Of a stretch of 38,586 bases of DNA, positions 1-38,586 are shown one piece after another (position 1 is the stretch's first letter; every line of letters begins with the position of its first letter). The stretch spans positions 1-38,586 of the forward strand of contig JAFQIB010000095.1 in the NCBI GenBank assembly GCA_017397765.1. The letters run 5' to 3'. Under the pieces are notes generated by a model that was given only the letters and a program-made list of their open reading frames with translations, was not told the origin of the DNA and ran no database searches. This DNA comes from Clostridia bacterium. GTDB lineage: Bacteria; Bacillota; Clostridia; Christensenellales; Aristaeellaceae. Made by a program: the position numbers and the translations under genes.

Positions 1-29
1 ATACTCCGGACCATGCGCAGACAGCAGGT

Positions 30-329
30 ATTTCAATCCACCCACCCCGCGTGGGGTGGGACATATCGTTCCGGCAGGTGCGTGCAGAGGCGGTATTTCA
101 ATCCACCCACCCCGCGTGGGGTGGGACCAGCTCCTGCCCTCATGCCGGTGCTGGAGGGAACATTTCAATCCACCCACCCCGCGTGGGGTGGGACGTGACA
201 AGCATGAGCTGTATGTGGACGTCTACAAATTTCAATCCACCCACCCCGCGTGGGGTGGGACCGTGTGATGATCCTCAAGGCTCTGAGGCTCGCGCAATTT
301 CAATCCACCCACCCCGCGTGGGGTGGGAC
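30..329 (-). CRISPR. Type I-C CRISPR array (5 repeats visible, continues past left edge)
   Basis: Five identical 33-nt repeats lie at 30-62, 95-127, 162-194, 229-261 and 297-329, separated by spacers of 32, 34, 34 and 35 nt; a sixth spacer is cut by the window edge (1-29). Read on the minus strand the repeat begins GTCCCACCCC, forms an 8-bp hairpin (CCCACCCC/GGGGTGGG, loop ACGC) and ends TGGATTGAAAT. That is the type I-C repeat form, whose last 11 nt become the crRNA 5' handle after Cas5c cleavage. The orientation and the leader at 330-505 mean the array is transcribed leftward, in the same sense as the cas operon. All visible repeats are identical, so this leader-proximal end shows no decay. 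I saw no match of these spacers elsewhere in the window. Confidence 0.98.
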
Positions 330-726: not shown

Positions 727-1560
727 TCACATACCCTCGATCACTTCGCAGGCCAGGCCGGGCAGCTCGTCCAGCTGGATGTCATAGTCTGCCACAGAGG
801 CAGGCGCATCGACCTTGGGCGTCACCTTCAGCAGCCGATGCACTTTGGCAGAGGAATACTGGCCATCCTTGCAATTATGCTCCCACCAGCAGACCTGCAC
901 CACTTCCATGGAGCCATCAGGACGGGCGGCAGAGGCGTCATTGACGAACAGGGTACGCAGGGCTTCCTTCACCACCAGGGCATCCTCCTGGGAGAAGCCG
1001 GTCTTTTCCGCCAGCTGCACATTGATGGAACCCTTCACCTGATACAGCCCGAAGCGCACGAAATGCTTCATCCCCATGGTGTCGCTGCCACGTTCGGCTT
1101 CGTTCTTGCGCTCGCCGCTGACACTCTTGGTGATCTGCATGGAGTAGGCGTCCACCGGATCAACGCTGACTGCCTGGTGGATGGATACCGGGCCGCGAAC
1201 GCCCACAGACTTGCAGTCAAAGCTATTGAAGGCAAATACCTGACCGAAGGTACGCACATCCAGCCATTTTTCGCAAGCTACCCTGGCAAATTCATCCTGC
1301 TTCTTGATGCCTTTCAACACGTTTGCGCGATCCTTCAGGCTGATGCAGTCATCGCTGCGACGGTCATCGGACTGCACAAAGATGTCATGCCCCAGATCCT
1401 GCATCCTGTTGCGAATCTTGCGCTTGATGCACACATCGGACATCTCGCCAAAGCCCTTGTAGTCCGTGCGGGGCCGATTGCCGTTGAGGGGATCACCGTT
1501 GGGGTTGGCATTGGTGACAGAAAGCAGCACAGCAAAGTCGATCTTCTTGTCAAACTTCAT
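727..1560 (-). CDS. cas7c: Type I-C Cascade backbone protein Cas7c (Csd2)
   Basis: Cas7 subunits polymerise along the crRNA guide to form the spine of the type I-C Cascade. The 277-residue product opens with MKFDKKIDFAVLLSVTNANP followed by NGDPLNGNRPR, the typical Csd2 N terminus, and has the family length. The ATG at 1560 is preferred over an upstream in-frame start because a GGAGGAA ribosome site precedes it and because it overlaps the cas8c stop by 11 nt, a sign of translational coupling. The C terminus ends one base before the cas4 remnant. No frameshift or missing block is seen, so the gene looks functional. Confidence 0.95.
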   Translation of the reverse strand: MKFDKKIDFAVLLSVTNANPNGDPLNGNRPRTDYKGFGEMSDVCIKRKIRNRMQDLGHDIFVQSDDRRSDDCISLKDRANVLKGIKKQDEFARVACEKWLDVRTFGQVFAFNSFDCKSVGVRGPVSIHQAVSVDPVDAYSMQITKSVSGERKNEAERGSDTMGMKHFVRFGLYQVKGSINVQLAEKTGFSQEDALVVKEALRTLFVNDASAARPDGSMEVVQVCWWEHNCKDGQYSSAKVHRLLKVTPKVDAPASVADYDIQLDELPGLACEVIEGM

Positions 1561-3331
1561 CGGAATGTTCCTCCGTTTCTTCGTTATCCTTCTTGGTGTA
1601 GAGCACACTCTTTTGCAGGTAGTAGCCGGGGAGATAAGATTCAGACAGGGGATCGCCATATTTCTCGGTTTCTTTGAGCGACAAGTGGATTTGCTCCATA
1701 ATTTCGCCGATCAGCTTCTCGTATTTTGTCCGAAGCCCGACGTGCAGCCGGGGATAATAGGCGTTTTTCAGTTGCTCCATGATGACCATGAAGGCGTATC
1801 CGGGACGTTTGACGAGCACAGATTGCATGCGGATCGCATTGGGCTCACGCTTCTCGTCCTGGTCGTAGGTATCTCGCTCAATCTTCTCCATCACGGCCAA
1901 CAAGCGTCCCCATTGATAGCTCCGATCCTTGCGTTCGGGTTCCAGTGCCAATTTGATTTCCCCCTTTTGACGGTCGATGTAGTACTTTCGTATGGCTGCG
2001 CAGGTGATGCACAGCAGCTTGTTGCGGTTGGCTTTACTGTACACCTGAAGGTTTCCGGCTTTGCTGACCAGAGCCTGCATGATATCCAGCGGGAACGCAG
2101 CCTGGTCGATACGGCAGGAAAGCAGACGCTGCATCTGGGGTGCAATCAGCTTTTCGTCCGGCTCCACCTTGCCAGCCTCGCCACGCTGTGTGCCAAAGGC
2201 GAAGGCGATCATGTTGTACAGCAGCGGGGACTGTACGCCGTGGTAGTAGTCCTTCCAGCAGCAGGTTTCGTCCCAATATGCCAGGCGGTCAAGGAAGTCC
2301 GAGCCCAGCATTTCATTATAGTAGGTAATAGCCAGGCGTCCGGTGGTGGCGGCATCAAAGGCGGCGATGATTACCTGATCTTCGGGCTGCCATTTATCCT
2401 GATAACCAACCAGCTTGCGCTTGAGATCCTCGCGGTAGCTCCGGTAATCCGGTAAGGCTTCTTCTTCCTCAAACTGAAAGAGGAAGGGCAACGTAAGCTT
2501 TGGGACGGTGCGTCCCTGAGGATTCCAGCAGACAAATGCACGACCACCCTGGATCGCTCCCTGGGTGCTGATGATCCACTTGAGGGCGTTGTGAGCCTTC
2601 TGTGAGGCAAGGTAGCCCACGGAGGCTGCTTCCTCAGGTTCAGCAAAACGACCACGGTAGGTGAAATTGGCAGAGTCGTTGGCAGAGATAATCTTTGCAT
2701 TGCCGTTGAGGGAGAAAGCCCCCTTCAGGTGCTGCCATGTGATGTGTGTATCCTCTCCTGTCAACATGCAGAGATTGGTTTCCCCCTGCTTTTGCGACAG
2801 ATAGTAGGAGGAATAGGCCTTCATCAGGTCGACATCCTCCCACACAGCAGTCTTGTCATCAATACCCAGTCCAAGCACACGCCAGCAAACCATGTCCTTT
2901 CCTTTGTCGGGGGACATTCCAGCATTGATCAGGTCACTGCGCAGTGTGCGCTGCTGGATATAGACCAGAATCGCCTTTGCTTTAGGATGAGCATATGCCG
3001 ACTGACACCATTGCGTGAGGTTGCTAATGTACAGGTTAAACTTGACCTCGTCATCGCCCAGCAGGTAGCCCAGTTGCTCACACAGCGGGTGGGCAGCAGG
3101 GCTGCTTGTACGGCCAGCGGATTCCTCCGTTACTGGAATGATGATCTTCTTGTCCTTATCAGCAAGCTTTGCGCCTTTGAACGCTCCATCCGCATTGATG
3201 GTGACTTCGATCTGCGCCTTGGTTACAATGTGGCCGATGGGGGCCAGGGGTTCTTCTTTGCCCTCTTCATAGAGGCCAACAATCTTTTCCATGGCTTCGT
3301 AGGTTTCCAATGCCTTTTGCAAAAGTCCCAT
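1550..3331 (-). CDS. cas8c: Type I-C Cascade large subunit Cas8c (Csd1)
   Basis: Cas8c is the large subunit that reads the PAM (5'-TTC in characterised I-C systems) and recruits Cas3. In many I-C systems an internal start in cas8c also makes the small subunit Cas11c. The 593-residue product starts MGLLQKALETYEAM and is full length for Csd1. A GGAGGTGACC ribosome site precedes the ATG, which shares one base with the cas5c stop (TGATG); the 3' end overlaps cas7c by 11 nt. An internal start for Cas11c can be expected in the last ~130 codons but I could not single one out. The gene is open throughout and looks intact. Confidence 0.95.
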   Translation of the reverse strand: MGLLQKALETYEAMEKIVGLYEEGKEEPLAPIGHIVTKAQIEVTINADGAFKGAKLADKDKKIIIPVTEESAGRTSSPAAHPLCEQLGYLLGDDEVKFNLYISNLTQWCQSAYAHPKAKAILVYIQQRTLRSDLINAGMSPDKGKDMVCWRVLGLGIDDKTAVWEDVDLMKAYSSYYLSQKQGETNLCMLTGEDTHITWQHLKGAFSLNGNAKIISANDSANFTYRGRFAEPEEAASVGYLASQKAHNALKWIISTQGAIQGGRAFVCWNPQGRTVPKLTLPFLFQFEEEEALPDYRSYREDLKRKLVGYQDKWQPEDQVIIAAFDAATTGRLAITYYNEMLGSDFLDRLAYWDETCCWKDYYHGVQSPLLYNMIAFAFGTQRGEAGKVEPDEKLIAPQMQRLLSCRIDQAAFPLDIMQALVSKAGNLQVYSKANRNKLLCITCAAIRKYYIDRQKGEIKLALEPERKDRSYQWGRLLAVMEKIERDTYDQDEKREPNAIRMQSVLVKRPGYAFMVIMEQLKNAYYPRLHVGLRTKYEKLIGEIMEQIHLSLKETEKYGDPLSESYLPGYYLQKSVLYTKKDNEETEEHSDEV

Positions 3332-4056
3332 CAGGTCACCTCCCCATATTCACGCAGACCAGAGAAATTGCCTGTATCCTCGCCAAAGGATTTCATGCTC
3401 ATGGCTTTGATGGGCTTGTGCATGGGACACTCTTCCGGCCGGACGAATTTGATGATCCCCTTCTCCATCACTGGCCGCCAGAGATTGACAGTCATTTTGC
3501 CTGCGGTTTCCTCGGAGTAAGCCTCATCGGCATAGGTCATGCCATGATACATCACCCCGAAGGACAGCTGTGGCAGATCGTCGTAGTCGCCTTCGCCTTC
3601 ACCGAACACGCAGGGTTCCACATAGGCCTGGCACTCGCGGGTGCCCAGGAATACATCCCTGCGCCCACCACGGCGAATCATTTTTTTAGCGATCTCGTGA
3701 TGCTTGTTTTCGTTCCGATCTCCCGCCAACTCAGGACGGTTCATGTTCCACTCGAAATGGGCGCGCACCTGGTAGCGGCAGTCCTTCAGGTAGGTGTAGT
3801 AGGCCAGGTCGTTACCGCCGTTGTACTTGATGGGGCGGATGCTCTTGACCTCCGTCTGGATACGGTTCATGATGCGCACTTCATCTATATACCAGATGAT
3901 GGTAGGCTTCCAGTAAATTGAGGAAAGCACGCCCTTGAGCGCCTCGTATGTAGGCACCTGGTAGCTGTTTTTCTCGCCGCCCACACGCATCAGTGGATCG
4001 GAGAACAGCGCATACGGTCCGTAGACCTCGAACTCTACAATATTAGGGTGCTGCAC
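3331..4056 (-). CDS. cas5c: Type I-C crRNA-processing endonuclease Cas5c (Csd5)
   Basis: In type I-C, which lacks Cas6, Cas5c cuts pre-crRNA at the 3' base of the repeat hairpin to leave an 11-nt 5' handle, and it stays in Cascade at that end. The 241-residue product has the family pattern: an N-terminal strand (VEFEVYGPYALFSDP), MRVGGEKNSYQVPTYEALKG and VLSSIYWKPTI. The start is a GTG at 4056, 12 nt after a GGAGG; it overlaps cas3 by 22 nt. Both the array repeats and the divergent repeat at 6549-6586 present the hairpin-plus-TGGATTGAAA arrangement this enzyme recognises, so it probably matures both. Confidence 0.95.
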   Translation of the reverse strand: MQHPNIVEFEVYGPYALFSDPLMRVGGEKNSYQVPTYEALKGVLSSIYWKPTIIWYIDEVRIMNRIQTEVKSIRPIKYNGGNDLAYYTYLKDCRYQVRAHFEWNMNRPELAGDRNENKHHEIAKKMIRRGGRRDVFLGTRECQAYVEPCVFGEGEGDYDDLPQLSFGVMYHGMTYADEAYSEETAGKMTVNLWRPVMEKGIIKFVRPEECPMHKPIKAMSMKSFGEDTGNFSGLREYGEVT

Positions 4057-6395
4057 AGATCATTTCCCTCCTTTATGCCGATATTGCTGTCGTAATAGTC
4101 GTTGTTCAGGGCATAGATGCTGCCGTCCAACAGCGTAAACGCCATTCCTTTTTCCAACATCTGTTCAATTTGCCCGTTTGTAACCGAAACGGTATAAGGC
4201 TTTGCTTTTTCCAGCAACCTGGCTACACTGGCAAGGTCATATCGAAGATCATCGTTCGATAATTCATCCATGATCTTTTTTCCCTCACCAAATGACACAA
4301 GAACACTCTCGCTGTTGCTGTCAAACACCTCGAACCATTTCCCCGCCGTGCGGAAGGCCTGGTTGAGCAAATAAGGGGATGAGGATTTCGACAGGAACTG
4401 CGTGTTGGTTGAAAGCAGCTCGAAAAGGTATTGTTCGTTGACGTAATAATCCTGTGCTCGCTTCGGCATATCGACATACAGGGCCGTATAATAATCCCGT
4501 ACAGCTGCGTCAGAGGCAAGGTCGTGATCGTAGTATGCCGGATGCTGGCGATATTCCGCCAACAGCTTTGTCAAAGCAGCTTGCGCCTCGCTGATCTCTT
4601 TGAGCGGCCCCAGCTTTTCACCTTTCAATGTGCAGATGCGTACCGGCTGAGGATCGGTGTGTTCGCCATGGCGGTTGCATCGTCCGGCGGATTGCACAAT
4701 GCTGTCCAACCCGGCGGCCAAGCGAATAACTGAACCGAAGCTGATATCCACGCCGGCCTCGATTAACTGTGTCGAGACGCAGATCAATTTCTCCTTCCCT
4801 GCCAAGGCCGTGTTCAGTTCTTGCAGCACCTGCTTACGATGCGCCATGCACATGCTGGCGGACAGATGGAAAAGCCTTGCATTTGTCGTTTCTCTCAGCG
4901 TATGGAACAGATCGGCTGCCTCGCGTTTGGTATTGCAAACCACCAGCAGACTGTTGGTGGTTTCAAGTGTTTTGCGTGCAAGGTCAGCAAGCTCCGCCAT
5001 GGAAAAGGAACCAGCATCCTGAATCTTTGTCCGTTGGAAAAGCGGCGCATACTGCTTGAACATAGCATCGCTGATCAACGGCTCGCAGGGGATCATTTTG
5101 CGTTCTGCTTTGTCGAAAGCCGGCTGCGTCGCGGAGCAAAGCACCACCGTCGCATTGCAGCATCTGACCAGGAAATTGATGGCGCAGTTGAACATGGAAA
5201 GCATCCTGGGTGGCAGAGATTGTACTTCATCAATGATGATGACGCTTTCACATAACGCATGGAAACGCCGCACCGAGGACATTTTGCCGCTGAACAGCGT
5301 ATTCAGCAGCTGTACAAAGGTCGTGATAATCATGGGCGCATCCCATGTTTCCTGCATATATTCCGTTTGCGCCACCTGCTCCGGCGTTGCTTCTTCCTGC
5401 ACCAGATTGGAATGATGCTCCAGCACAAGAACACTGTCGCCAACCGCCGACTTGATTACATCGGCATTCTGCTCGATGATGGAAAGGAAGGGGGCAACAT
5501 AGAAGACTCTTTGCATCTTGTTCTTTTTGGCATGAAGCACTGCAAACCGTATGGCTGCCAGCGTTTTACCGCCACCGGTGGGCAGGTCGAGGCGATAAAG
5601 CCCGGGGGGATTCTCTGCTGCGGCAACGCAACAGTCGGAAAAGGCTCTGCGAGCCAACTGGATGGGTTTCTCCTGCGGAAAGGACATGATGTGTTCGTCA
5701 ACTCGCGCAGCACATTCTGCCCAGTCAGGCGGGTTGTTCTGTGGAAGGGGGAGGTTGTCCATAAAACATCGGGTGTCGGTTCTGTCTGCTTCAACGATGG
5801 CCGAGGTGATCAGACGCGCCAGCAGCCCCAGAGCATAGCAGCATTCCTTTTCACTTCTGACATAAGCGTGAATCCTCAGCTGAAAAAAAGCGGTGATCTC
5901 CTTCTTCGCCTCGCTGAAAAGCTGCACGATTTCGTCTTTGGCCGCACATTCTTCATAAAAGGATGTGATCGCTCGGTAGTCATAGGTGGGCTGGTGCTTC
6001 AGCCGATGATCAAACCCGCTTTCATGCCGTTCATTCCACAGATCAAACAACCCGTGGTGACTGCCAATACAGATGGCAATGACCTCGGCCACAATATTTT
6101 CCATAGGCTGATTGTTTAGAGTATGAAACAGCTCCATGATACAGCGCACACCAGCAAAGGTATGGATCACGCTGCCCTTGCGAACTGGTTCGTTGTTGCT
6201 TGCTCGGGTAATGTAATCATCAAATTCATCTGTGAACTTACCGCAGTCGTGCAGTAAACCCGTCAAGTACCCCGTTGCGCTCAACCCGCAGGGGGCAAGA
6301 ATACATTTCGCAAGATCGGCAACAGAACGTGAATGCTCCGCACAAGTCTGAATGCGATGCGGATTTGACAATGGATCAATGTGCGCTGTATGCAT
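4035..6395 (-). CDS. cas3: CRISPR-associated helicase-nuclease Cas3
   Basis: Cas3 is recruited to the R-loop formed by Cascade, nicks the displaced strand with its HD domain and degrades DNA while translocating. The HD nuclease comes first, with an early histidine in AEHSRSVADLA and the HD pair in LTGLLHDCGKF (near residues 45-55). A superfamily 2 helicase follows: Walker A LPTGGGKT near residue 275 and a DEVQ box (IIIDEVQSLP) near residue 390. Two in-frame ATGs exist; I prefer the second (6395) because GGAG lies about 8 nt upstream, giving 786 residues; the first, at 6407, adds four. First gene of the cas operon, with its promoter at 6447-6475. It looks intact, so interference should still work. 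Confidence 0.95.
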   Translation of the reverse strand: MHTAHIDPLSNPHRIQTCAEHSRSVADLAKCILAPCGLSATGYLTGLLHDCGKFTDEFDDYITRASNNEPVRKGSVIHTFAGVRCIMELFHTLNNQPMENIVAEVIAICIGSHHGLFDLWNERHESGFDHRLKHQPTYDYRAITSFYEECAAKDEIVQLFSEAKKEITAFFQLRIHAYVRSEKECCYALGLLARLITSAIVEADRTDTRCFMDNLPLPQNNPPDWAECAARVDEHIMSFPQEKPIQLARRAFSDCCVAAAENPPGLYRLDLPTGGGKTLAAIRFAVLHAKKNKMQRVFYVAPFLSIIEQNADVIKSAVGDSVLVLEHHSNLVQEEATPEQVAQTEYMQETWDAPMIITTFVQLLNTLFSGKMSSVRRFHALCESVIIIDEVQSLPPRMLSMFNCAINFLVRCCNATVVLCSATQPAFDKAERKMIPCEPLISDAMFKQYAPLFQRTKIQDAGSFSMAELADLARKTLETTNSLLVVCNTKREAADLFHTLRETTNARLFHLSASMCMAHRKQVLQELNTALAGKEKLICVSTQLIEAGVDISFGSVIRLAAGLDSIVQSAGRCNRHGEHTDPQPVRICTLKGEKLGPLKEISEAQAALTKLLAEYRQHPAYYDHDLASDAAVRDYYTALYVDMPKRAQDYYVNEQYLFELLSTNTQFLSKSSSPYLLNQAFRTAGKWFEVFDSNSESVLVSFGEGKKIMDELSNDDLRYDLASVARLLEKAKPYTVSVTNGQIEQMLEKGMAFTLLDGSIYALNNDYYDSNIGIKEGNDLCSTLIL

Positions 6396-6446
6396 ATTTT
6401 TCTCCATAAAGGATTGAAATAACGGTACAGGAGTTGCAATGAATAT

Positions 6447-6475
6447 ATTTTAGTACATACACATGCCTATGTCAA
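6447..6475 (-). promoter_or_regulatory. cas operon promoter (TTGACA-N17-TAAAAT)
   Basis: Minus-strand -35 TTGACA at 6470-6475 and -10 TAAAAT at 6447-6452, exactly 17 nt apart, predict a start near 6440 and a ~45-nt leader before cas3. It is a near-consensus housekeeping promoter, strong enough that a brake would be useful. The sequence matched by the CreR-like guide (6490-6505) lies just upstream. A full-length Cascade footprint starting at 6505 would reach the -35 box. Confidence 0.88.
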
Positions 6476-6489
6476 GTTTGTCTGTATAT

Positions 6490-6508
6490 AAAATAAACAT
6501 ATATTGAA
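6490..6508 (-). promoter_or_regulatory. Predicted Cascade/CreR operator upstream of the cas3 promoter (PAM + protospacer)
   Basis: On the minus strand this site reads TTC (6506-6508) followed by AATATATGTTTATTTT (6505 down to 6490). The guide immediately following the handle of the divergent repeat is AATATATGTTTGTTTT (6587-6602). The first 11 nt are identical, position 12 differs (a G.T wobble against the target strand) and 13-16 agree; further down the match fades. TTC is the canonical type I-C PAM and sits exactly at position -1 to -3. Seed pairing with weak PAM-distal pairing is what crRNA-mimics use to bind without cleavage. The sequence match is seen directly; repression is inferred. 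Confidence 0.85.
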
Positions 6509-6514
6509 ATAGTA

Positions 6515-6543
6515 TTGCAAATTTCAGAATCAAATGATATAAT
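6515..6543 (+). promoter_or_regulatory. Promoter of the CreR-like RNA (TTGCAA-N17-TATAAT)
   Basis: Plus-strand -35 TTGCAA (6515-6520), 17-nt spacer and perfect -10 TATAAT (6538-6543). The predicted start falls at about 6549-6551, the first base of the divergent repeat. It is divergent from the cas3 promoter, and the predicted operator lies between the two. It may also drive the 138-aa gene at 6665. Confidence 0.85.
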
Positions 6544-6548
6544 CAATT

Positions 6549-6646
6549 GTCGCATCAAGCAATACCCTTGATGTGTGGATTGAAAAAATATATGTTTGTT
6601 TTTTCACAGGGAGAACGCCGCGATATGTGATTATCACGGCGTTCTC
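6549..6646 (+). ncRNA. creR: CreR-like crRNA mimic: divergent type I-C repeat plus guide targeting the cas3 promoter
   Basis: The transcript is expected to begin GTCGCATCAAG and to fold 6551-6559 onto 6567-6575 (9 bp including one G.U) around a loop of CAATACC. The next 11 nt, 6576-6586, are TGGATTGAAAA, differing only at the last base from the array handle TGGATTGAAAT. The hairpin stem is unlike that of the array repeat, but the layout (GTC start, stem, 11-nt handle) is the same, as Cas5c processing would demand. The guide starts at 6587 and matches the cas3 upstream region next to a TTC PAM. A 10-bp hairpin (6611-6620 with 6637-6646, loop of 16) may mark the 3' end, although no U-run follows it. 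Known relatives are CreR (cas-autorepressing) and CreA (toxin-repressing) RNAs. Because the target is the cas promoter, CreR is the better label. Confidence 0.85.
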
Positions 6647-6664: not shown

Positions 6665-7081
6665 ATGATCACATCGTTCTGCATCGAATGGCATAATTGG
6701 GGCGACATAACACCCGTATATCATGTAGCAACAGAGACCACAAAGGTTTTCCGGCGAAAGAAGCTGTTGACCACCGGTCAATACAATGACATTGGCAATG
6801 CCTTCATTACGACCTCAATACCTCTGAGCCAAGAGAAGTGTGACTATCTGTTTTCATTGATTGATACAATCGTTTCAGAAGCCTCCGGCAAAGGCTATAT
6901 GCAAAAGATCTGCGATGGCTATTACTGGCGCCTTCTGATCCGTCACAGTGATAAGCATGTTCAGATGATCGAAGGTACTACTATCGCCCCCAACACCGCC
7001 TGCGAATTGGAGCTTGCCATCAGAGACATTCTCCATTCTGAAAGATATATGGGGCGTCCGCATCTGTTTGGCATTTGTTAA
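6665..7081 (+). CDS. Hypothetical protein, 138 aa, directly downstream of the CreR-like RNA
   Basis: I do not recognise a named family. The ATG at 6665 follows an excellent GAGGAGGAG site, so the longer upstream reading frame is not used. The product is soluble, with no signal peptide or membrane segment. Its second half (GYYWRLLIRHSD, then VQMIEGTTIAPN, and a C-terminal RPHLFG) resembles small Firmicute proteins ending in a P-x-LFG-like motif. It lies behind the CreR promoter and after a 10-bp hairpin without a U-run, so it may be expressed by read-through of the CreR transcript. A link to CRISPR function (for example a cargo or control protein) is possible but rests only on position. A strong bidirectional terminator follows. 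Confidence 0.75.
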   Translation: MITSFCIEWHNWGDITPVYHVATETTKVFRRKKLLTTGQYNDIGNAFITTSIPLSQEKCDYLFSLIDTIVSEASGKGYMQKICDGYYWRLLIRHSDKHVQMIEGTTIAPNTACELELAIRDILHSERYMGRPHLFGIC

Positions 7082-13417: not shown

Positions 13418-14404
13418 TTAGTTGAAATAAGTCTGCAGCAGCTTCAAGCCCGCATCCATATCGCGCATGTCGATGACCTCACAGGCGCTGTGGACATAGC
13501 GGCAGGGAATGGAAATCGTACAGACCGGAATACCACCGCGGCTGGTCTGCATGGCAGAAGCATCCGTGCCGCCGTAGGGCAGCACCTCGCGCTGGGTCTT
13601 CACGCCGGCCTGCTCGCCAGCCTCGATCAGCGCCTCGCGCAGCGCCGGATTGGAGATGCTGCCGCGGTCCATCACCTTCACGGCAATGCCCTCGCCCAGC
13701 TTGATCTCCGGCAGCGTCACGCCGGGGGTATCGCCCCAGCCGGTCACGTCCAGCGCAATGCCGATATCCGGCTCCTTGGCAAAGGAAGCGACCTTCGCGC
13801 CGCGGCAGCCGACCTCCTCCTGCACGGAGAACACGGCAATGATGGTGTCCTGGGTCTCCCCCACCGTCTGCAGCAGCTTCACCAGCAGCGCGCAGGCGCA
13901 GCGGTCGTCCATCGCGGGAGCAGCCACCCGGTTTTCGCCCAGGCGGAAGCAGTCGTTGGCGTACACGCACACATCGCCCAGCTGCACCATCCGCTTTGCG
14001 TCATCCTTGTCCTGCGCGCCGATATCAACGAACAGATCCTTCAGCGCGGGCTGGCCGGACACAGGCTGGGCCACCACCACGCCGTGCACGCCATTGGGGA
14101 ACACCACATGGCGGTTATAGCTGTTCACCATACCGATGCCGCCCACGTTGGTCACCCGTAGGAAGCCTTCCTTCTCAATGCCGGTGACGATATAGCCGAT
14201 GTGATCCATATGGGCGGAGAGCATCACCTTGCGGGGATTCTCCCCCTTGCCCAGCTTGGTGGCGATCAGGTTGCCCAGCGCGTCCACCTCAACCGTATCC
14301 ACACAGTCCTTGATTTCCTCCCGGATGACGTCGGCCACAGGCGTTTCCAGGCCGGAGGGGCCCACGGGAGAGAGCACCTTCTTCAGCAGATCAAACATAG
14401 TCAT
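13418..14404 (-). CDS. M42 family metallopeptidase (third gene of the cluster)
   Basis: M42 enzymes are di-zinc or di-cobalt aminopeptidases (glutamyl aminopeptidase, deblocking and TET types) that usually form cytosolic dodecamers and trim peptides. Visible metal-site motifs are LSAHMDHIGYI (first His/Asp), PAMDDRCACALLV (bridging Asp), FSVQEEVGCRGA (catalytic and ligand Glu), ALDVTGWGDTPG (Asp) and the C-terminal YVHSACE (His). Length, 328 residues, is normal. The ATG at 14404 has AGAAGGAGAT before it. It follows the middle M42 gene by 12 nt and is the last of three paralogues read from one promoter. Individual substrate preferences cannot be read from sequence. Confidence 0.93.
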   Translation of the reverse strand: MTMFDLLKKVLSPVGPSGLETPVADVIREEIKDCVDTVEVDALGNLIATKLGKGENPRKVMLSAHMDHIGYIVTGIEKEGFLRVTNVGGIGMVNSYNRHVVFPNGVHGVVVAQPVSGQPALKDLFVDIGAQDKDDAKRMVQLGDVCVYANDCFRLGENRVAAPAMDDRCACALLVKLLQTVGETQDTIIAVFSVQEEVGCRGAKVASFAKEPDIGIALDVTGWGDTPGVTLPEIKLGEGIAVKVMDRGSISNPALREALIEAGEQAGVKTQREVLPYGGTDASAMQTSRGGIPVCTISIPCRYVHSACEVIDMRDMDAGLKLLQTYFN

Positions 14405-14416
14405 TATCTCCTTCTA

Positions 14417-15427
14417 TCAAAGGGCCGCCATAAGGGCCTTGGTCAGTTCAAACTGGGCGTCAGCATCGCTGAGCTTGATGACGCTGGAGGGGCTGTGAAT
14501 GTAACGGCAGGGCACGCTCAGCACGATCGTGGGAATGCCCTGGCGGGCCCGCTGGATCGACCCGGCGTCATTGCCGCCGGACACGGAGCCCTTCACCTGA
14601 TGGGCAATCCCCGCCTGCTCCGCCACATTCAGCGTCTTGCGGAAGAGCTCCCGGTTGACGATGGAGGAATTGTCCATGAAGGAGACCGCCACGCCCTCGC
14701 CGGTTTTGCAGACCTGCACCGCCTCAGGAACGTCGCCCAGGTCGTTGCAGGTGGTGCCCTCCAGGACGATGCCGATATCCGGCTCCTGGGCAAAGGCAGC
14801 GCCGCTTGCACCGCGGCAGCCGACCTCCTCCTCGGAGACGAAGGCCGCGATCAAATCGCAGGGCAGCTCCTCCTCCAGCAGCCGCAGGATCGTCCAGCAG
14901 CCTACCCGGTCATCAAAGGCCTTGCCGCAGGCATAACCCTCGCCGAATTCCACATAGGGCGTATCAAAGCTGATATAAGTGCCCAGCGGGGCCTTGCGCT
15001 CCGCCTCCGCCTTGTCGGCAGCGCCGATATCCACATTGATATCCCGGTAGCCCATCACGCGGGCCCGGTCGGCGGCGGACTGCAGGTGGATGGCCACCGC
15101 GCCGATCACGCCGGGGATATTGTCATCACCCACCAGCACGCGCTTGGAGATCAATACGCGGGGATCGATGCCGCCGGCCTGGGTCACCTTGAGGAAGCCG
15201 CCTTCAGCATGCCCGGTGACGATCAGACCGACCTCATCCATATGGGCCGCCACCATCACCCGCTTGCGGGGCGCAGGGCCGACGCCTTCCTTCACCACAA
15301 TCACATTGCCCATCCGGTCGATATAGGGCTGATGCCCCTTCGCCTTCAGCTCCTCCAGGAGTGCGCGGCGGATGGGCTGCTCATGGCCCGAGGGCGCGTT
15401 GATTTCCGTCAATGTCTTCAGATCCAC
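14417..15427 (-). CDS. M42 family metallopeptidase (second gene of the cluster)
   Basis: Second of three M42 aminopeptidase paralogues, 336 residues. Metal and catalytic motifs are present: VAAHMDEVGLIV, KAFDDRVGCWTIL, AFVSEEEVGCRGASGA, a ligand region near VLEGTTCND and the terminal YIHSPSSV histidine. In the Asp ligand strand it reads VLEGT where the neighbours have ALDVT and VLDVD, so one metal ligand is Glu instead of Asp, possibly shifting metal or substrate preference. The start is a GTG at 15427 after GGGAGGATGAACT, inside the last codons of the upstream gene (10-nt overlap), so translation is coupled. Confidence 0.93.
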   Translation of the reverse strand: MDLKTLTEINAPSGHEQPIRRALLEELKAKGHQPYIDRMGNVIVVKEGVGPAPRKRVMVAAHMDEVGLIVTGHAEGGFLKVTQAGGIDPRVLISKRVLVGDDNIPGVIGAVAIHLQSAADRARVMGYRDINVDIGAADKAEAERKAPLGTYISFDTPYVEFGEGYACGKAFDDRVGCWTILRLLEEELPCDLIAAFVSEEEVGCRGASGAAFAQEPDIGIVLEGTTCNDLGDVPEAVQVCKTGEGVAVSFMDNSSIVNRELFRKTLNVAEQAGIAHQVKGSVSGGNDAGSIQRARQGIPTIVLSVPCRYIHSPSSVIKLSDADAQFELTKALMAAL

Positions 15428-16458
15428 AGTTCATCCTCCCAACCCGCGTCCAGCTCGCTGATAAAGTGGGCCAGCAAGCGCGCGCCTTCCTCAAGGGTAT
15501 CCAGAGAAATGGTTTCCACCGAGGTATGCATATACTTTTCCGGGAGCGAGAACACCACGGTGGGCACGCCTGCGCGGCTCACGCCGATCTCGTCCGCATC
15601 CGTGCCGGTATAGCGGCCCGCCACATTCTGGCTGAGCTTGACGTGGTGCGCCTTGGCGCAGTCCACCAGCCGCTTGGCAACCTTCGGCTGCACATAGGGG
15701 CCATGGGTGACCACCATCGCATCCAGCGGATTGGCCACGTCCGGGCCGCAGCCGGGGGTGAGGGCAAAGTCCACATCCAGCACCACCGCCAGATCCGGCG
15801 CAACCGCGAAAGCTGCGGTCTGGGCACCCCGGCCGCCAACCTCCTCCTGCGCGGAGCAGACGAAATACACGTCCGCCTCGCAGCTCATGCGCTGCAGCCG
15901 CTCCGCTGCCCGGAGCATGATCGCCACACAGGCCCGGTCATCCAGGGACTTGGCAGCCACCTGACCATTCGCCAGCTCGGTGAAGGGGGTGTTGAAGGTT
16001 ACCAGATCGCCCACGCGCACCTGCTGGCGCACCTTGTCTGCCGGCAGGCCCAGGTCGATATGGAGCTTGTCCATCTTGTAATTATTCGCCCGATCCTCCG
16101 CGCTCATCAGATGGGGCGGCATCGCGCCGATGGTGCCGAAGAGCTTGCCGTTCCGGCCGTGCACCCATACGCGGGAGCCGGGCAGGATGCGGGGGTCCAC
16201 GCCGCCCACGCTGGAGAAGCGCACGCTGCCGTCGTCCTCGATCCGGTTGACCATCAGGGCGATCTCGTCCAGATGGGCACAGAGCATGATCTTCGGGCCC
16301 TGCCCCTTCTTGTGGGCAATCACATTGAACATGCTGTCCACCGTGACCTCATCCACATAAGGGCGGAACTGCCCGGCGAAGTATTCCGCAACGCACGCCT
16401 CCTGTCCGCTCACGCCCAGCGTGGACGTCGCCTCGGACAGGATCTTCCTGATATCCAT
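15418..16458 (-). CDS. M42 family metallopeptidase (first gene of the cluster)
   Basis: First gene of the three-gene M42 cluster, 346 residues. Motifs: LCAHLDEIALMV, KSLDDRACVAIML, FVCSAQEEVGGRGA, VVLDVDFALTPG and the C-terminal KYMHTSVETI. All expected metal ligands and the catalytic Glu are present. The ATG at 16458 follows AGGAGGAATCCC. A TTCACA-N17-TATAAT promoter with an extended TG element lies about 70 nt upstream (16518-16546). Three adjacent M42 paralogues suggest a peptide-scavenging unit, perhaps forming mixed TET-like complexes, which is inference. Confidence 0.93.
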   Translation of the reverse strand: MDIRKILSEATSTLGVSGQEACVAEYFAGQFRPYVDEVTVDSMFNVIAHKKGQGPKIMLCAHLDEIALMVNRIEDDGSVRFSSVGGVDPRILPGSRVWVHGRNGKLFGTIGAMPPHLMSAEDRANNYKMDKLHIDLGLPADKVRQQVRVGDLVTFNTPFTELANGQVAAKSLDDRACVAIMLRAAERLQRMSCEADVYFVCSAQEEVGGRGAQTAAFAVAPDLAVVLDVDFALTPGCGPDVANPLDAMVVTHGPYVQPKVAKRLVDCAKAHHVKLSQNVAGRYTGTDADEIGVSRAGVPTVVFSLPEKYMHTSVETISLDTLEEGARLLAHFISELDAGWEDELWI

Positions 16459-38119: not shown

Positions 38120-38126
38120 CAAAAAG

Positions 38127-38586
38127 CCGCCTGCCCCGAAAGCAATCAGGGCAGGCGGCAGACTGCCGACAAAGGTATGTTTGGAGCCTGCAAAAGGGTT
38201 TCGCCTCTGCGGAAGCGACCAAAGGACTTTCCGATCGCCCTTTGGAAACCTTCGGTTGCATACTATTAACGAAAACCAAGTTTGTTGATAAAAACCGCCT
38301 GCCCCGAAAGCAATCAGGGCAGGCGGCAGACTGCCGACAAAGGTATTTTTGGAGCCTGCAAAAGGGTTTCGCCTCTGCGGAGGCGACCAAAGGGCTTTCC
38401 GATCGCCCTTTGGAAACCTTCGGTTGCATACTGTTAACCAAAACCAAGTTTATCGATAAAAACCGCCTGCCCCGAAAGCAATCAGGACAGGCGGCAGACT
38501 GCCGACAAAGGTATGTTTGGAGCCTGCAAAAGGGTTTCGCCTCTGCGGAGGCGACCAAAGGGCGTTCCGATCGCCCGTTGGAAACC
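38127..38586 (-). repeat. 168-bp tandem repeat (2.7 copies, runs off right edge), possible ncRNA array
   Basis: CCGCCTGCC begins copies at 38127, 38295 and 38463, so the period is exactly 168 bp; the first two copies differ at only a few positions. On the minus strand each unit contains, in order, a 9-bp hairpin (CCAAAGGGC / loop GATCGGAAA / GCCCTTTGG; 38219-38245, 38387-38413, 38555-38581), a CGCCTC/GAGGCG hairpin, and a terminator-like stem (CCGCCTGCCC/GGGCAGGCGG) followed by TTTTT. In the first copy the changes in both hairpins are to G.U pairs, so pairing is kept. The stem at 38127-38158 also serves as terminator for the FliB-like gene. No convincing protein gene is present. Confidence 0.8.

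Follow-up and report, generated by a model that had tools for sequence, protein, structure and literature searches.

A predicted CreR-type RNA that would direct Cascade to the cas3 promoter of its own type I-C operon

The cas-regulating RNAs termed CreR were reportedly introduced by Liu et al. (2023, Cell Host Microbe). Cas9 carrying a natural single-guide RNA is comparable to the effector considered here in that it represses its own promoter through partial pairing, and differs from it in being type II and tracrRNA-based.

According to passages of PMC12737573, PMC13131331 and PMC12948488, CreR are crRNA-like RNAs that are partly complementary to the promoter of their cognate cas genes and through which the cell's own effector brings about autorepression. 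The subtypes named in the excerpt of PMC13131331 are I-B, I-E and V-A, and a passage of PMC12948488 describes a mini-CRISPR RNA, whereas the locus reported here is of subtype I-C, among the commonest CRISPR subtypes (PMC7684278, in part), and has one pseudo-repeat followed by a hairpin in place of the second repeat. CreA, the antitoxin RNA of CreTA modules, likewise acts beside a TTC PAM through seed positions 1-5 and 7-11, positions 6 and 12 being irrelevant; however, it represses a toxin gene rather than targeting a cas promoter, is flanked in most modules by two pseudo-repeats rather than one, and pairs over a shorter stretch than the window RNA and its relatives, where pairing reaches about 15-18 nt (PMC8501985, in the part covering these features). 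Racr RNA anti-CRISPRs are also solitary repeat mimics outside arrays, but the passage of PMC10651486 describing them places them in viral genomes, whereas the present RNA lies in a cas locus with a matched target. No I-C CreR was found in the literature searched, the original CreR paper lying outside that search, and PMC9458426 gave no passage on I-C or terminators. The cas3 autorepression loop predicted by the initial annotation of this DNA is not a new idea; it fits into the published CreR class, which our finding extends without adding a new kind. The subtype, the single-repeat-plus-hairpin form and the existence of two control points may be new aspects.

The type I-C locus and its small RNA gene

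The window, that is, the whole 38,586-nt stretch of DNA analysed, carries near its start a cas operon, cas3-cas5c-cas8c-cas7, which family models identify as type I-C:

4035 to 6407, minus strand: cas3, first gene of the operon (TIGR01587, TIGR01596)
3331 to 4056, minus strand: cas5c (TIGR01876)
1550 to 3331, minus strand: cas8c (TIGR01863)
727 to 1659, minus strand: cas7 of subtype I-C (TIGR02589)
1 to 329, minus strand: CRISPR array with repeat GTCCCACCCCACGCGGGGTGGGTGGATTGAAAT, truncated at the contig end

Complete spacers of the window array measure 32-35 nt. The array follows cas7, with no cas4-, cas1- or cas2-sized gene between them (1-727). No Cas1 match was found in the genome of the window (88.96% complete), nor in G206, G209 and G102; one was found in G213, G216, G217, G192 and G135. 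Further along, three neighbouring minus-strand ORFs of similar lengths at 13418-16458, sharing repeats about 1,030 bp apart, are likely tandem paralogues, and a 168-bp unit is present three times in tandem at the window end (38122-38586).

Upstream of cas3 and divergent from it, at 141 bp, starts a solitary pseudo-repeat, which together with its surroundings shows the following features:

6447 to 6452, minus strand: -10 box of the cas3 promoter, TAAAAT
6470 to 6475, minus strand: -35 box of the cas3 promoter, TTGACA (N17 to the -10 box)
6471 to 6489, minus strand: unpaired remainder of the inferred footprint of about 35 bp of Cascade, reaching into the -35 box
6490 to 6505, minus strand: stretch of the target that pairs, protospacer positions 1-16
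6506 to 6508, minus strand: TTC PAM adjoining the target
6515 to 6520, plus strand: -35 box of the small RNA promoter, TTGCAA
6538 to 6543, plus strand: -10 box of the small RNA promoter, TATAAT
6549 to 6586, plus strand: pseudo-repeat (single, degenerate), a hairpin plus the 5' handle GTGGATTGAAAA
6587 to 6610, plus strand: guide, of which 6587-6602 pairs with the target
6611 to 6646, plus strand: 3' hairpin straight after the guide, in the place of the second repeat (z -5.3)

The end of the pseudo-repeat, GGATTGAAAA, is in the same register as the array repeat, whose end is GGATTGAAAT. The sequence GTGGATTGAAA occurs 12 times in the genome: five times in the window array, six on contig C140 and once in the pseudo-repeat, the sole copy outside an array when C140 is counted as array. 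This contig reads as the opposite end of the same array, because its last bases overlap the first ones of the window; the repeats at that far array end (L095) are degenerate. The 5' part of the putative RNA is thus CRISPR-repeat-derived, lies outside the array and is preceded by promoter-like sequence, as in CreR. In all five clade members (the window and the relatives considered below) this promoter has the form TTGNNN-N17-TANAAT, its -10 box ending 5 nt before the pseudo-repeat. A scan of the whole window with Rfam at gathering thresholds gave no match.

Pairing of the guide with the cas3 promoter region

The guide at 6587-6602, AATATATGTTTGTTTT, matches the minus strand at 6505-6490, AATATATGTTTATTTT, in 15 of 16 positions. 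The match starts at guide position 1, its first 11 positions are perfect and the only mismatch is at position 12; it adjoins an exact TTC at minus 6508-6506 and lies just upstream of the cas promoter TTGACA-N17-TAAAAT (minus 6475-6447). Past position 16 pairing is poor, with 5 of 18 positions matching. The initial annotation had already given the match and its register, the PAM, the place relative to the promoter and the weak PAM-distal pairing, and these were confirmed here. TTC is also the motif reported for a type I-C system of Xanthomonas oryzae (PMC8406640, in the passage concerned).

When the guide was compared with dinucleotide shuffles of the 141-nt region 6408-6548 (25.5% GC), a 15/16 match arose anywhere in 5 of 20,000 shuffles and beside TTC in none of 20,000, so AT-richness does not explain the match. 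Moreover, the PAM plus seed with position 6 left free (TTCAATATNTGTTT) has a single site in the 3,126,902-base genome, the one at the cas3 promoter. Partial complementarity of the guide to a PAM-flanked stretch at the cognate cas promoter is a further CreR trait.

That single site also bears on whether the RNA might be a CreA-like antitoxin repressing a neighbouring toxin gene. A 138-aa ORF (6665-7081, plus strand), preceded by a GGAGG-like ribosome site, begins 18 nt past the 3' hairpin; at E 0.001 neither Pfam nor NCBIfam gave a match for it. The target, however, is on the cas3 side, no toxin promoter carries the PAM and seed, and a simple TTGAAA-end pattern reveals no second repeat end within 100 nt past the paired guide. 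Besides, tblastn against the loci of other genomes, which reached 3-6.6 kb upstream of cas3 in clade members, returned nothing related to the ORF (no E <0.4), while guide and target persist there. The ORF was consequently set aside as a partner toxin, and we consider an antitoxin role very unlikely. CreR are in general not coupled to a toxin gene; in the window this unrecognised ORF adjoins the RNA.

Related loci were then taken from a Cas3 search of 308 genomes of the family, which gave 62 places. Among the six closest systems (L003-L008), four have a pseudo-repeat at the same place (L003/L036, L004/L037, L006/L039 and L007/L040), and in L008/L041 the region is truncated by the contig end. 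L003, L004, L005 and L007 correspond to JAGBEX010000025.1, JAQXLU010000091.1, JAFTPN010000014.1 and JAFXBE010000027.1, respectively, with agreement over the 1,500 bases compared. A sigma-70-like promoter was present near the corresponding place in four relatives. The guides of the clade differ, and their targets change correspondingly: each guide matches its own target in 13-14 of 14 positions (6 and 12 excluded), as against 6-13 for the other pairings within the clade. Both cross-pairings that reach 13 involve the window and G213, the guides of these two differing at a single position, and G216, G209 and G102 cross-match at 11-12. Guide and target have thus been kept together in evolution, again as in CreR, and the independent drift that the initial annotation had named as a refutation of its autorepression pairing was not seen; that prediction is strongly supported by the comparative evidence.

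The 3' hairpin gave a less uniform result. Among five relatives, changes on both sides were found in 5 of its 14 pairs. In controls with the five sequences, the numbers of paired cells and of two-sided-change cells and the covariation score exceeded those of all 500 shuffles; 24 of the 500 reached the count of pairs with two-sided changes, and pair types were few, their number being at least as high in 457 of 500 shuffles, so that the overall outcome was mixed. RNAalifold also drew a helix between the handle end and the guide (window 6576-6608) in the five clade RNAs.

In the sixth system, L005/L038 of G206, which has cas3-cas5 and a cas8 truncated by the contig end, no repeat end was found in the 700 nt upstream of cas3, which indicates that the module can be lost. 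This absence, and the fact that a lone degenerate repeat lies outside the array, would suit a stray repeat or self-acquired spacer that has decayed and is now functionless. We regard such a remnant as highly improbable, given that the promoter, the hairpin pairing and the guide-target match have been retained despite sequence change.

Guide-target pairs in other type I-C loci

A survey was carried out in which guides following repeat-end-like sequence outside arrays were compared with the TTC sites of the same locus. The first set contained 60 loci, the window and 59 others: the 19 best of the 61 other Cas3 places, and 40 of the 49 places from an order-level Cas5c search, omitting five already in the set and four that were weak or partial. 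With at most one mismatch allowed outside positions 6 and 12, 12 of 326 guides matched; shuffled guides gave a mean of 0.1 (maximum 1) and rotation between loci a mean of 0.09. Since this filter favours positions 6 and 12, the comparison was repeated with up to three mismatches anywhere and any PAM. It returned 98 matches, among which TTC was by far the top triplet (16, followed by AAA with 7), and 13 of the 16 TTC matches were the same non-coding pairs as before. The second set comprised 100 of 115 places from a phylum-level search (110 of 398 genomes); the place of the window itself, four that were partial or sat at a contig edge and ten that missed the cut-off were omitted. Here 7 of 337 guides matched, compared to a rotation mean of 0.34 (maximum 2); six, non-coding pairs beside cas3 or cas5, were accepted and one was judged noise. 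Without PAM selection TTC was still the commonest triplet in this set (7 of 68), the accepted pairs elsewhere having themselves been selected for TTC. The scattered non-TTC matches (82 of 98 in the first set, 61 of 68 in the second) were treated as background, and four TTC matches were dropped because handle and target lay within cas genes (L047, L065), the target was in an array (L071) or it was inside cas3 (L147).

Altogether, 18 of the 160 loci carry a guide-target pair, with 19 pairs in total. Both I-C systems of G102 carry a pair of their own (L040, L079). The other 142 have no such pair at survey stringency; 11 of the 160 loci offered less than 400 nt upstream of cas3 or had no cas3 found. 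A handle-agnostic search of the cas3 upstream regions and cas3-cas5 gaps of the 48 hitless first-set loci gave one unconvincing, tandem-like match (L060).

Eight plasmid I-C loci, from 86 matching records, were also fetched. One of the eight, that of Lacticaseibacillus paracasei pLPZ1 (NZ_CP065155.1, L199), meets the survey criterion under a looser handle rule: its pseudo-repeat and TTC-flanked target both precede cas5c (L199 60-520), 14 of 16 positions match (1-13 and 15), and a hairpin plus T run is present. A comparison of this intergenic stretch with plasmids found no informative relative (two records, one being itself). Paenibacillus amylolyticus pY5S7-1 (L196 6450-6620) is a weaker candidate, with a pseudo-repeat, a hairpin and a TTC-flanked match at 9 of 10 seed positions, all in a 536-bp cas3-cas5c gap. 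As it falls below the criterion and yet has these elements, the survey count is a lower bound. Other plasmid TTC rows were dropped as array repeats or very loose handles.

This recurrence beside cas genes speaks to the possibility of a repeat mimic of the anti-CRISPR type, which would sequester Cascade and have no target. Solitary mimics of that sort are known from viral genomes (PMC10651486, in part), but the present one lies next to the cas operon of the host and has a specific target close by, and the same holds for 17 other loci; we find a target-free mimic barely credible.

Mismatches between guides and targets are concentrated. Among the 38 at positions 1-16 of the 19 pairs, position 6 accounts for 15 and position 12 for 13 (binomial 7e-18, for pairs that are not fully independent, five loci forming one clade, and that were partly found with a filter lenient at 6 and 12 and then confirmed without it). 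Restoring the four dropped TTC matches changes the share at these positions from 28/38 to 29/49. When positions 1-5 and 7-11 were the sole basis for picking pairs, known pairs made up 13 of 16 rows, the other three being judged noise; in those 13, position 12 was mismatched in 10, and positions 13-16 were matched in 48 of 52 cells. pLPZ1 is an exception, with mismatches at 14 and 16. Matching drops to background after 16-18 nt. The pattern coincides with the free positions of CreA, and in Cascade every sixth crRNA base is flipped out (PMC5904413, in part).

The clustering at 6 and 12 also argues against a reading in which the matching stretches are not guide and target but a pair of operators, arranged as an inverted repeat around divergent promoters and recognised by a DNA-binding regulator. 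The two copies in the window clade do form an inverted repeat at divergent promoters, but in 11 of the 18 loci (L051, L074, L076, L077, L079, L089, L091, L103, L112, L164 and L165) they are on the same strand, so that there is no fixed symmetry; and although a repeat end and TTC were selection criteria, nulls built with the same criteria give about none. Operator sites are, in our judgement, extremely unlikely.

The 64 nt past guide position 16 folded with z < -3 in 17 of the 18 loci (the exception being L164), and none of the 18 control windows 200 nt further on did so. A second repeat end, searched as a simple TTGAAA-end pattern in the 100 nt past the paired guide, was absent from the window and found in one of the 18 loci (L051). 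A type I-C crRNA is normally without a 3' stem-loop (PMC7684278). Few of the 18 loci have a clear T run after the hairpin, so these structures may be weak terminators or 3' caps.

The pairs are placed upstream of cas3 in nine loci and, in a departure from CreR, in the cas3-cas5 gap in the other nine of 18 (the cas5 position of L079 being taken from the order-level Cas5c search). In a promoter scan restricted to consensus matches and the best scorer, six loci including the window have 18-31 nt between the PAM edge and the -35 box, which lies within or at the end of the footprint, and five have the box 4-13 nt beyond the PAM edge; in three the -10 box is 37-47 nt from the PAM edge and the footprint lies downstream, over the start region. 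The remaining four (L091, L103, L109 and L164) showed no clear promoter relation. Judging from this placement, the gap pairs would throttle cas5-cas8-cas7 and not cas3.

Predicted autorepression and its meaning

Taken together, these results make it very probable that 6549-6646 encodes a CreR-type RNA which guides Cascade to the cas3 promoter and represses its own type I-C operon. A promoter of its own, divergent from cas3, would drive transcription of this crRNA-like regulatory RNA, and Cas5c would process and bind its pseudo-repeat as it does the repeat of a crRNA. The guide would then direct Cascade, formed by Cas5c, Cas8c and Cas7, to 6505-6490 beside the TTC, although loading into a normal Cascade is uncertain because the guide measures only 24 nt before the hairpin, less than the array spacers. 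Pairing of about 16 bp would give stable binding and be too short for Cas3 to act. In the type I-E system of E. coli, a match of no more than 18 bp suffices for maximal affinity of Cascade while interference needs more, and PAM-distal mismatches abolished interference and not binding (PMC5904413); we extend this behaviour to I-C by analogy. Bound Cascade, covering or abutting the -35 box, would repress the cas3-cas5-cas8-cas7 operon, and Cascade would in this manner limit its own supply, with competing crRNAs or anti-CRISPR proteins relieving the repression. The initial annotation had supposed that repression lifts when crRNAs are scarce or when Cascade is inhibited. Relief by anti-CRISPRs fits the CreR model, but the crRNA part has to be reversed: crRNAs compete with CreR for Cas proteins (PMC12737573, section 3.2), so abundant crRNAs would lift repression and scarce ones deepen it.

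More tentatively, and with more doubt than confidence, we suggest that I-C systems across the phylum (Bacillota, judged by the names of the fetched relatives) use a distinct single-repeat CreR. A long hairpin starting about 17-31 nt past the handle would stand in for the second repeat and cap the guide, leaving Cascade short or stalled, so that it binds and represses without completing the R-loop or calling Cas3; lineages would choose the control point, braking all of the operon at cas3 or cas5-cas8-cas7 alone. If that proposal is true, Cascade would be tuned separately from Cas3. If the RNAs work as predicted, crRNA-like cas autorepression reaches subtype I-C and scattered lineages of the phylum, and the natural guide-target pairs display in their evolution which R-loop bases matter. 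Work on I-C Cascade and on anti-CRISPRs may likewise encounter a feedback loop that is part of the system.
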